From assembly GCA_021827925.1 (NCBI GenBank), contig JAKATZ010000028.1, positions 1 to 38,646 of the forward strand: a stretch of 38,646 nt of DNA, written 5' to 3'. Under the pieces are notes generated by a model. That model was not told where the DNA came from, made no database searches, and was given only the letters and a program-made list of their open reading frames with translations. Numbering within the stretch: position 1 is the stretch's first letter; every line of letters starts with the position of its first letter. The translations under genes and the position numbers were made by a program. Below are positions 1,458-6,170 of this stretch, in pieces. This DNA comes from Microcaldota archaeon (GTDB lineage Archaea > Micrarchaeota > Micrarchaeia > Micrarchaeales > CABMGC01).

Positions 1458-1468
1458 TATTTATATCT
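1458..1468 (+). promoter_or_regulatory. TATA box (TTATTTATATC) for leaderless priL transcript
   Basis: Centred about 25 nt upstream of ATG 1487. Confidence 0.5.
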
Positions 1469-1486: not shown

Positions 1487-2437
1487 ATGGACGTACACTC
1501 CATTCCGCGTGTGGAGGAGCAGGCGCTAGATTTCGCGTACAGATATCCATTCACTCCGGAGGCCAGAGATATAATACTCCGCTCTAAGCCGGAGTTGAAC
1601 CAGAAATATCTGAAGGCCGGTCTGTTGCGCGCCTCTGAAGCACTTGAACGCGGAGGCATAAAGTTTACCAAGATGAATCTTTACGACCAGAAATACACTT
1701 CGCTGATGGGCTACGTGTACGCAAGAATGCTTGTAAGCGCTCTTAACAGCAAGGCTGCCATTGAAAAGTACATCCGTGCGGAGTCGCGCCGCGCAAGGGA
1801 GATACTCGCCAACGACGCGGAAAACCTGCCAAGGCTTGCGTCATCCCTCCGCTGCGGAATTGTGCAAACAAAGCCATACTACAGCCTGCGCATGGAGGAA
1901 TTCCTGCTATACTCTGGCAAGTCAAAGGAACTCTCCCTCGTAAAGCAGGAGCTCTACGCGGGGACGGTGTATCTGACCATAAGGAAGGCAGCGGTTCTCC
2001 TGGGCATAATCTCGATACGCGAGATACGGAGAAATCTTCCTATACCAGCTGGGGATCTGCCTCTGGAAGTGGTGGCCTCGTCGAAAATCCTGCCGCTGCC
2101 AGAGCCAGTATTACCTCGCTCCCCGCGTGCCGATACTGAACGATACGGATGGATAGAGAAGATACTCGCGAATCCAATATCTGACGTAAGGCACCGGACC
2201 GTCAATCTTATACTTGCCCCCTACCTGATAAACGTCAGAGGCATGAAGGAGTCTGATGCCTCTAAAGTTATAAGCGAGTACATAGCTAGGTGCAAGGAGC
2301 TCAATCCCGATACTGATGTCAATTCTTCCTACATCACCTATCAGTGCAGGTATTCAAAGGCGAAAGGACTCAAGCCCCTCTCGCTTGACAATGCAAAAAG
2401 CCTTTTAAGCCACGTGCTGGATCTAGATAATTGGTGA
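1487..2437 (+). CDS. priL: DNA primase large (non-catalytic) subunit PriL with a PriX-like C-terminal domain
   Basis: PriL-like N-terminal domain (YPFTPEARDI…YVYARMLVSALNSKAAIEKYIRAESRRAREIL…LVKQELYAGTVYLTIRKAAVLL) followed by RHRTVNLILAPYLINVRGMKESDASKVISEYIARCKEL…YQCRYSKAKGLKPLSL. ATG 1487 preferred over the track start at 1415 because of TATA spacing. Confidence 0.75.
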   Translation: MDVHSIPRVEEQALDFAYRYPFTPEARDIILRSKPELNQKYLKAGLLRASEALERGGIKFTKMNLYDQKYTSLMGYVYARMLVSALNSKAAIEKYIRAESRRAREILANDAENLPRLASSLRCGIVQTKPYYSLRMEEFLLYSGKSKELSLVKQELYAGTVYLTIRKAAVLLGIISIREIRRNLPIPAGDLPLEVVASSKILPLPEPVLPRSPRADTERYGWIEKILANPISDVRHRTVNLILAPYLINVRGMKESDASKVISEYIARCKELNPDTDVNSSYITYQCRYSKAKGLKPLSLDNAKSLLSHVLDLDNW

Positions 2438-2441
2438 CTGA

Positions 2442-2609
2442 ATGAGAAAACGCGGTCTGTGCCACATATGCGGCTCAGTCGGGGATAACTCCTGTGTGAT
2501 CTGCGGCAGGATAGCCTGCAACAGCCATTACGATCTCGCTTCTGGGGCATGCTCCTCCTGCAGGTCAGGAAGGAAAGCAGGACTGCCAAATTCAAAGCCA
2601 AGGGCCTAA
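2442..2609 (+). CDS. small CxxC zinc-finger protein, 55 aa
   Basis: Not in the ORF track (<60 aa). Translation MRKRGLCHICGSVGDNSCVICGRIACNSHYDLASGACSSCRSGRKAGLPNSKPRA; ordered CxxC…CxxC…CxxH…CxxC; starts 5 nt after the priL stop. Confidence 0.75.
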   Translation: MRKRGLCHICGSVGDNSCVICGRIACNSHYDLASGACSSCRSGRKAGLPNSKPRA

Positions 2610-3232: not shown

Positions 3233-5248
3233 ATGGAATGGAGGGTTATAAAGCGGGACGGCACTCCCGTTGGATTCGACGCATTGAAAATAGAGAATGC
3301 CATACTGCGCGCCATGGGGGCTGTTGGCATGGCAGGAAGCACCTCGAGGGAGGAAGCCGCCCTTCTCACACGTTCTGTTGTCAGCAGGCTCGGCTCGATG
3401 GGCGACACTTTCACAGTGGAGCAGATACAGGATGTGGTTGAAAAGGTTCTCGTAAGTACGGGCAACACGGAACTAGCGAAGGCCTACATACTATACCGTA
3501 AGCAGCACCAGGACATCCGCTCCGCGGCAATGCTAGTCGAGGACATACGCATGATAGACGATTACATAGGCAGGAGGGACTGGCAGGTAAAGGAGAATGC
3601 AAACATGGACTATTCCATCCAAGGTCTCAACAACTATCTGACTTCAAAGATAATCTCAGAATACTGGCTGAACAAAGTGTACGGTGAAGATGTGAGGAAA
3701 GCGCACGTTAACGGTGACATGCACGTGCACCAGCTAAACTTCCTGGGACCTTACTGCGTTGGATGGGATCTCCGGGACCTTCTTATACGCGGGTTCGGAG
3801 GTGCTAGGGGCAAGGTCGAGTCAAAGCCTGCAAGGCATCTCAGGACTGCATTGATGCAGATCGTGAACTTCTTCTACACCCTGCAGGGAGAGAGCGCTGG
3901 GGCCCAGGCATTCTCCAACTTTGATACATACCTTGCACCGTTCATAAGGCATGACCGTCTTAGCTATGCCGAAGTAAAACAGGCGATGCAGGAGTTTGTG
4001 TTCAACATGAATGTGCCCACCAGAGTCGGTTTCCAGACACCGTTCACAAATCTGACTCTTGATCTGAAGGTTCCAGAATACCTGAAGAATGATGCCGCAA
4101 TAATCGGAGGGTTGTCCACAGAGACTCCATACTCCGACTTTCAAGGCGAAATGGACATGATAAACGCGGCTTTTGCGGAGGTGATGTCGGAAGGCGATTC
4201 CGTAGGCAGAGTTTTCACCTTCCCAATACCGACATACAACGTAACGCGCCAATTCGACTGGGACAATCCTGCATATCTGCCAATATGGAAGATGACCGCG
4301 AAGTACGGGATACCTTATTTTTCCAACTTCATAAACAGCGACATGAAGCCTGAAGACGCAAGAAGCATGTGCTGCAGACTGCGCCTTGACACCCGCGAGC
4401 TGAAGAAAAGGGGAGGCGGACTTTTTGGAGCCAACCCTCTGACCGGATCCATAGGGGTCTTCACTATAAATCTCGCAAGGATAGGCTACCTGTCTAAGAC
4501 CGAAACGGAGTTCACGGAGAGGCTAGGGAAGCTGATGGATGTGGCAAAGGAGGGCCTGGAAACGAAGAGGAAGGCCATAGAGCATTTTACCGAGATGGGC
4601 CTCTACCCGTATTCCAAATTCTACCTGCAGGGCATCAAGGATGCTTATGGCGGCTACTGGAAGAATCACTTCGCCACGATAGGCATAATCGGGGCAAATG
4701 AGGCATGCATCAACTTCATGGGAAAGGACATAACCACTTCTGAGGGCAAGGCATTTGCGCTTCGCATAATGGACTTCATGCGGGCTAGAATGGAGGAATA
4801 CCAACTGGAGACGAACAGCATATACAATCTCGAGGCCACTCCCGCAGAGAGCACATCCTATGCGCTTGCAAAAGAGGACAAGAGAAGATTCGGGAACATA
4901 CTGGTGGCAAATGAAGCTGAGTACAGAAAGGGCGCAGCCCCCTACTATACCAATTCGTCACAGGCGCCTGTCGGGTACACGGATGATGTATTCGAAGCCT
5001 TGAAGAATCAGGACGAGCTTCAGTCAAGGTATACTGGCGGCACTGTGCTGCATGCATTCCTTGGCGAGGCTATGCCTTCTCCAGAAGCAACGAAGAGTCT
5101 TGTGAGAAGGATAGCGGAGAATTTCCGCCTTCCTTACTACACCATTACCCCAACCTTCAGCATATGTCCTGTTCATGGCTACCTTTCAGGGGCTCATGAA
5201 TACTGCCCGAAATGCGATGAGATCATACTGAAAGGTGTATCTAAATGA
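3233..5248 (+). CDS. nrdD: anaerobic (class III) ribonucleoside-triphosphate reductase, catalytic part lacking the C-terminal glycyl-radical domain
   Basis: N-terminal ATP-cone (VIKRDGTPVGFDALKIENAILRAM), GDMHVHQLNFLGPYCVGWDL, SICPVHGYLSGAHEYCPKC; stops after CPKCDEIILKGVSK. ATG 3233 or GTG 3224. Confidence 0.93.
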   Translation: MEWRVIKRDGTPVGFDALKIENAILRAMGAVGMAGSTSREEAALLTRSVVSRLGSMGDTFTVEQIQDVVEKVLVSTGNTELAKAYILYRKQHQDIRSAAMLVEDIRMIDDYIGRRDWQVKENANMDYSIQGLNNYLTSKIISEYWLNKVYGEDVRKAHVNGDMHVHQLNFLGPYCVGWDLRDLLIRGFGGARGKVESKPARHLRTALMQIVNFFYTLQGESAGAQAFSNFDTYLAPFIRHDRLSYAEVKQAMQEFVFNMNVPTRVGFQTPFTNLTLDLKVPEYLKNDAAIIGGLSTETPYSDFQGEMDMINAAFAEVMSEGDSVGRVFTFPIPTYNVTRQFDWDNPAYLPIWKMTAKYGIPYFSNFINSDMKPEDARSMCCRLRLDTRELKKRGGGLFGANPLTGSIGVFTINLARIGYLSKTETEFTERLGKLMDVAKEGLETKRKAIEHFTEMGLYPYSKFYLQGIKDAYGGYWKNHFATIGIIGANEACINFMGKDITTSEGKAFALRIMDFMRARMEEYQLETNSIYNLEATPAESTSYALAKEDKRRFGNILVANEAEYRKGAAPYYTNSSQAPVGYTDDVFEALKNQDELQSRYTGGTVLHAFLGEAMPSPEATKSLVRRIAENFRLPYYTITPTFSICPVHGYLSGAHEYCPKCDEIILKGVSK

Positions 5249-5439
5249 AAAACGAATGCGAAACAGGAGAGCTTGATTCCAAAGAGCTTAGAGAGAGAAG
5301 ATCCGAGAGAAGCAGGTGCGAGGTGTACTCGCGGATAGTGGGATACCTGCGGCCCGTTTCCCAATGGAACCTTGGAAAACAGGAAGAATTCAAGGATAGA
5401 AACACATACGACAAAACTTCGGAAAAGGCATGCTGCTAG
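5245..5439 (+). CDS. separate glycyl-radical domain of class III RNR (64 aa)
   Basis: CEVYSRIVGYLRPVSQWNLGKQEEFKDRNTY matches the RVxGYxRPVxxWNxGKxxEF glycyl-radical signature; ATGA overlap with nrdD stop. Confidence 0.85.
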   Translation: MKNECETGELDSKELRERRSERSRCEVYSRIVGYLRPVSQWNLGKQEEFKDRNTYDKTSEKACC

Positions 5440-6170
5440 GTGCTGTCGTGCGGATTGGCGGGTTCCAACGGGTCAGCCTCATTGATTATCCCGGCAAGAT
5501 TACATCTATAGTCTTCTTGCAAGGGTGCAACATGAGGTGCCCGTTCTGCCATAACTCCGAACTAGTCTTCAGTAATACAATGAATGTGGGATTGTATGAT
5601 GAAGAGATGGTGCTCCGGAAGATTGAGGAGAGCAAGGGCTTTGTCGAGGCAGTCGAGATAACGGGGGGCGAGCCTACGCTTCAGAAGGGTCTCGCGCATT
5701 TTATAAGAAGATGCAAGGAGCTGGGTTTCCTTGTAAAGCTTGACACCAATGGCTCTGATCCTGATGCAGTAAGAATGCTTCTGAATGAAAAACTGATCGA
5801 CTATGTCGCTATGGACATCAAGGCGCCGCTCAATGCCGAGAGATACAGGACCGCAACAGGAACGCAAAACGATACGATGGCAGGTAAGATAGGTCAGACT
5901 GCAACGCTTCTGATAGGCTCAGACATAGATTATGAGTTCAGAACCACCGTGGTCCCAGGCATAGTAGAGGTGGACGACCTGATAAAAATTGCGGGAAGCG
6001 TAAAGGGGGCCAGGGCATACTATCTCCAGCAATTCACACCTACACATTCACTCGATCCTGCGTTTCGTACAGTAAAGCCTTACGATTCGGCTAAGCTTAG
6101 GGCAGCTAAAGACGCGATAGAGAATCTCTGCCTTGTAAGAAAATGCGAGATACGCGAAGTCGGCACATAG
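5430..6170 (+). CDS. nrdG: anaerobic RNR activating radical-SAM enzyme
   Basis: CNMRCPFCHN CxxxCxxC radical SAM motif, VEITGGEPTLQ, adjacent to nrdD. Confidence 0.88.
   Translation: MLLGAVVRIGGFQRVSLIDYPGKITSIVFLQGCNMRCPFCHNSELVFSNTMNVGLYDEEMVLRKIEESKGFVEAVEITGGEPTLQKGLAHFIRRCKELGFLVKLDTNGSDPDAVRMLLNEKLIDYVAMDIKAPLNAERYRTATGTQNDTMAGKIGQTATLLIGSDIDYEFRTTVVPGIVEVDDLIKIAGSVKGARAYYLQQFTPTHSLDPAFRTVKPYDSAKLRAAKDAIENLCLVRKCEIREVGT

Follow-up and report, generated by a model that had tools for sequence, protein, structure and literature searches.

What kind of primase subunit is encoded by a gene that begins as PriL, the large subunit of the archaeal replicative primase, and ends as something else? 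The catalytic or redox role of the primase Fe-S cluster in priming is disputed, and to our knowledge the cluster is nearly universal, so that a large subunit built without it deserves a close look. The gene at 1487–2437 lies in the window, by which we mean the whole stretch of 38,646 nucleotides analysed here, and the original prediction took it for a PriL-PriX chimera with an alternative replicative primase architecture. We believe, at a probability of about 0.93, that its product is the large subunit of this organism's replicative primase, the only one detected, and that it is a natural and Fe-S-free fusion of a PriL N-terminal domain (NTD) to PriX that acts with PriS. The features on which the argument draws are as follows.

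1487–2437 (+): priL-X fusion gene; runs from an ATG to a TGA and encodes 316 aa
1487–2095 (+): PriL N-terminal (PriS-binding) domain, residues ~1–203; NF002588, 1zt2_B, Foldseek 1zt2/5ofn
2096–2140 (+): flexible linker, residues ~204–218; low AlphaFold2 pLDDT
2141–2425 (+): PriX domain replacing the Fe-S PriL C-terminal domain (PriL-CTD), residues 219–313; PF18689, NF033412, 4wyh/5of3_C/F
2183–2197 (+): D233-x-R235-x-R237, aligned with PriX D70/R72/R74 (initiating-NTP site); 4wyh alignment
1460–1467 (+): TATA-box-like TTTATATC, putative promoter, ~20–27 nt 5' of the ATG; found by eye
2442–2609 (+): 55-aa zinc-finger ORF, candidate primase partner; conserved neighbour with weak Pfam matches

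Domain identity and predicted structure of the fusion

The open reading frame is unbroken from 1487 to 2437 on the plus strand. Although the frame stays open upstream as far as a GTG at 1415, the starts of its relatives fall at the position of the 1487 ATG. Homologues of ~300–330 aa occur in well over 100 Micrarchaeota genomes; those relatives that are named are Candidatus Micrarchaeota, one of them placed in Micrarchaeaceae. That an error of assembly or annotation joined two neighbouring genes is so improbable as to be negligible: nothing was found in its favour, and an unbroken frame of near-equal length recurs in well over 100 independent assemblies, some of them single-contig.

Both halves of the protein were assigned by curated models. 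The best NCBIfam PriL model, NF002588, matches residues 20–186 (E 2.2e-11) within an N-terminal domain that extends over residues ~11–203, while PF18689 (residues 220–304, E 1.6e-12, 47.9 bits against a cut-off of 25) and NF033412 (residues 219–313, E 5.1e-30, 103.8 bits against a cut-off of 50) both place the C-terminal part in the PriX family with scores above their curated cut-offs. The canonical PriL model PF04104 has no match in the fusion protein or in the genome of the window up to E 10. A single-sequence search of the PDB, again up to E 10, returned three sequences only: two PriX entries and 5OFN_B (E 9.5e-10). A profile built from 29 homologues matched 5OFN_B from end to end (E 2.7e-30) and recovered the separate parts as 1ZT2_B, a PriL N-terminal domain (E 3.3e-14), and 4WYH, a PriX (E 8.6e-13). 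The best full-length match in the PDB is thus 5OFN, an engineered Sulfolobus PriL-X chimera.

The predicted structure agrees. A monomer model computed with AlphaFold2 from an alignment of 29 sequences has a mean pLDDT of 90.3, with most of both domains above 90; low confidence is confined to stretches near both ends and to residues ~205–218 between the domains, where the linker block scores ~56–73 and falls below 50 at 210–215. When the model was compared with the PDB by Foldseek, the N-terminal part matched PriL (1ZT2, 5OFN; TM-score on target 0.67–0.69) and the C-terminal part adopted the PriX fold (5OF3_C/F, 4WYH; TM 0.71–0.76, rmsd 1.8–2.0 Å, 30–32% identity). No isolated Fe-S domain was among the 50 Foldseek matches listed for the fusion, whereas a sister-family canonical PriL put through the same steps matched the isolated Fe-S C-terminal structures 3LGB, 3Q36 and 5F0Q, albeit weakly. 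The prediction that the first ~200 residues are PriL, that the C-terminal half is PriX-like and that PriX is fused where the Fe-S domain would sit is therefore borne out by the models, by the predicted fold and by the single reading frame.

Three residues of Sulfolobus PriX, D70, R72 and R74, hold the initiating nucleotide by its triphosphate; initiation depends on them, whereas extension does not (PMC5700102, PMC6393858). The corresponding D233, R235 and R237 are invariant in all 29 aligned fusions, and 84 of 85 distinct fusion ORFs contain the D-x-R-x-R pattern, the sole exception being taken to be a 127-aa fragment at a contig edge (locus L016). The pocket is not identical to that of Sulfolobus PriX, since Y103, which supports R72 there, aligns with I266. 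The Fe-S signature SCxxMxxxGxCxxxC, on the other hand, is found in 10 of 10 canonical PriLs from sister families and in none of the 85 fusions; together with the silence of PF04104, this establishes that the fusion lacks the four-cysteine 4Fe-4S C-terminal domain, as had been predicted from the cysteine layout. The same prediction counted three scattered cysteines. There are indeed exactly three (C123, C269 and C287), but two of them are not scattered: C269 is conserved in 29/29 and C287 in 27/29 fusions. These two residues lie in successive predicted helices and have no counterpart among the Fe-S ligands. C269 (2291–2293) and C287 (2345–2347) are missing from the Sulfolobus PriX sequence, and a disulfide or a metal site is possible.

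Elsewhere around the gene, a 206-aa protein on the minus strand (729–1349) has no Pfam or NCBIfam match, and some related genomes have apparent relatives of it upstream of the fusion. On the plus strand, 3233–6170 encodes an anaerobic ribonucleotide reductase (NRDD, E 1.6e-177) and, after it, a radical-SAM protein that is probably the NRDD activase.

Distribution of the fusion and of other primase genes

We surveyed 295 genomes of the phylum, taking as good quality those with a completeness of 90% or more and a contamination of 5% or less. PriX is present in 143 of the 295, all within families f1 and f2 of one order, and in none of the other families; every listed f1 or f2 genome without it is less than 90% complete. 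The fusion is fixed across the order of the window, occurring in 52 of 52 good-quality genomes, and a separate Fe-S PriL occurs in 0 of these 52. Sister families of the same class retain canonical PriL. Strong canonical PriL matches are confined to genomes outside the order; the weak PF04104 matches inside it (E 5e-5 to 9e-4) are the fusion genes themselves, wherever positions were compared. Outside the order, by our hand count of the tables, PF04104 matches in 36 of 45 good-quality genomes and a profile of sister-family PriL recovered 7 of the remaining 9, leaving two good-quality sister genomes (families f10 and f17) with no PriL by either search.

The genome of the window, a 969-kb draft that is 93% complete, yielded no second PriL and no separate PriX, its one PriX being the fusion, which agrees with the architecture predicted from the gene. 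A hidden canonical PriL was sought with PF04104 and the sister-family profile, and only the fusion was found (residues ~21–255). For a draft of this completeness, the case that there is no second PriL draws in part on the relatives. PriS is intact as a 391-aa ORF on another contig (PF01896, E 9.1e-17) with a DxD-type motif read by eye.

Could the fusion instead be an accessory or repair subunit, the replicative large subunit being another, undetected protein? The genome is a draft, and the two f10/f17 sister genomes indicate that very divergent PriLs can evade detection. However, the genome of the window has one PriS-type gene above the cut-off and one PriL-type gene, and the order-wide counts, 52 good-quality genomes with the fusion and none with a separate canonical PriL, make an accessory role highly unlikely. 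We therefore retain the fusion as the replicative large subunit.

Some assemblies call for comment in their own right. Five MAGs titled Candidatus Marsarchaeota (L054, L077, L090, L105 and L110) carry the Micrarchaeal fusion, and the zinc finger downstream of it in L054 is identical to that in L009 of family f1; these MAGs are probably mislabelled. Two different fusion genes (L113 and L119) lie on contigs of one MAG, TL1-2.bin19, reflecting contamination, mixed strains or duplication. At G127:C21:539-1750, two PriX matches in separate frames share one contig, through either duplication or an assembly error.

Origin of the PriX domain and the neighbouring zinc-finger gene

The two parts of the fusion have different affinities. 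The N-terminal domain scores 113–157 bits against nine of ten sister Micrarchaeal PriLs (76 for L038) and 61 against Sulfolobus PriL, and this greater closeness to the sister families fits vertical descent. The C-terminal domain was compared with Sulfolobus PriX, represented throughout by one sequence, and gave Smith-Waterman scores of 116–143 against a shuffled maximum of 58. Earlier work saw no sequence similarity between PriX and PriL-CTD (PMC9258230, PMC6393858), and Sulfolobus PriX itself has none to sister PriL-CTDs in our comparison (25.2 against 24.9 shuffled). The Micrarchaeal domain does resemble PriL-CTD: the pairwise mean against sister PriL-CTDs is 41.8 against 25.8 ± 4.4 for shuffles, and the profile-profile score of 35.8 was reached in 0 of 200 column shuffles, whose maximum was 22.1. 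Being similar to both modules, the domain thus bridges PriX and PriL-CTD at the level of sequence, which bears on the origin of PriX.

This second similarity raises the possibility that the domain is the lineage's own PriL-CTD minus its Fe-S subdomain, the likeness to PriX being convergent. The C-terminal domain of the fusion is indeed collinear with sister canonical PriL-CTDs, with the segment bearing three of the cysteines missing and the first cysteine replaced, and the profile-profile result points the same way. Yet by Smith-Waterman the domain is far nearer to Sulfolobus PriX than to PriL-CTD of the sister families, for which the best scores per sequence are 40–79. It also shares the PriX-type D-x-R-x-R site, and it is about equidistant from Micrarchaeal PriL-CTD (mean 42) and Sulfolobus PriL-CTD (28–51). 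We consider convergence unlikely and prefer a genuine PriX domain. That domain may have come from Sulfolobales, passed to Sulfolobales or been reduced in place.

Four nucleotides after the stop codon of the fusion starts a gene for a 55-aa protein with the cysteine spacing CxxC-x7-CxxC-x4-C...CxxC. In 80 of 110 loci, among which some genomes recur, the fusion is closely followed by a relative of this finger. Of the 81 genomes of the order with a completeness of at least 85%, 73 have a profile match to the finger, which by our own count adjoins the fusion in ~69 of them, whereas in 26 genomes of other families with a related finger a comparison of coordinates found none adjoining PriL. Pfam matches are weak, to Prok-RING_2 for the 55-aa finger and to zf-HIT in a relative. 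The protein may be a primase partner, a lead and nothing more. More speculatively, this finger could be a third subunit that replaces the Fe-S subdomain in an Fe-S-free primase, with PriX a reduced PriL-CTD shared by Micrarchaeales and Sulfolobales through horizontal transfer, although we regard this combined scenario as doubtful.

Proposed mechanism and significance

By analogy with the engineered chimera, we propose that PriS would pair with the fusion as a replicative primase of two subunits. PriL(1–211)-PriX(42–154) together with PriS is fully active in vitro (PMC5700102), and in S. islandicus such a fusion takes the place of PriL and PriX in cells that grow normally but are sensitive to DNA damage (PMC12019639); that the chimera works both in vitro and in vivo is the basis for the function we infer here. 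First, the PriL NTD would dock on PriS, encoded elsewhere in the genome. D233, R235 and R237 of the PriX domain would then hold the initiating nucleotide by its triphosphate, and PriX would swing on its flexible linker to the PriS active site, where the first dinucleotide would be made. Subsequently, PriX would retain the 5' end of the primer. An Fe-S cluster would play no part in such a priming cycle, and the subunit would be expected to be essential. An Fe-S-free alternative replicative primase architecture, as originally predicted, is a well-supported inference.

The closest known system is 5OFN (Holzer 2017, PMC5700102), which has the same domain order, with PriL-CTD deleted and PriX attached by a linker. 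That chimera is man-made, whereas the Micrarchaeal fusion is natural and order-wide, with 18% identity to 5OFN_B over the stretch aligned by Foldseek. The PriSLX primase of Sulfolobales (5OF3, 4WYH) has the PriX fold and the D-x-R-x-R NTP site in common with the fusion, but Sulfolobales retain an Fe-S PriL and encode PriX as a separate third subunit, while the Micrarchaeal protein is one fused chain from a single ORF. Canonical PriL of the sister families (PF04104) has the N-terminal domain closest to that of the fusion, and clearly homologous to it, but carries the four-cysteine Fe-S domain that the fusion lacks. A PriS-PriL fusion in DPANN cluster 2/Undinarchaeota (PMC7414124) is likewise a fusion of primase subunits in archaea with small genomes; it joins PriS to PriL, whereas here PriL-NTD is joined to PriX and PriS remains separate. 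Finally, the PriCT and helix-bundle domains of mobile-element primases (PMC5862659) are PriX-related, Fe-S-free initiation domains, but they are fused to the catalytic domain and reside on mobile elements, in contrast to this chromosomal large subunit.

Published accounts describe PriX as specific to Sulfolobales (PMC9258230), DPANN cluster 1 as consistently encoding canonical priS and priL (PMC7414124) and the ARMAN-2 primase as canonical with two genes (PMC6349945); none of these three passages mentions a natural PriL-PriX fusion. Against these accounts the fusion appears new, and priority is uncertain. NF033412 is typed as an 'equivalog_domain' model, so the curators of NCBIfam may have known of fused forms. 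Two published statements change: PriX extends beyond Sulfolobales, and not every Micrarchaeal PriL is of the canonical type.

Loss of the Fe-S machinery was considered as a cause and rejected, as the genome of the window encodes a SufB/D family protein. The Fe-S-free fusion has been kept in a genome that encodes SufB/D and, near the fusion, a radical-SAM protein. Given that the S. islandicus chimera is sensitive to DNA damage, the question arises of what Micrarchaeales do instead. The clearest evidence that we found against a role of the Fe-S cluster in priming had come from the artificial Sulfolobus chimera; a natural, testable Fe-S-free replicative primase is now available, and its retention across an entire order is strong natural evidence that the Fe-S cluster is dispensable for starting DNA replication.
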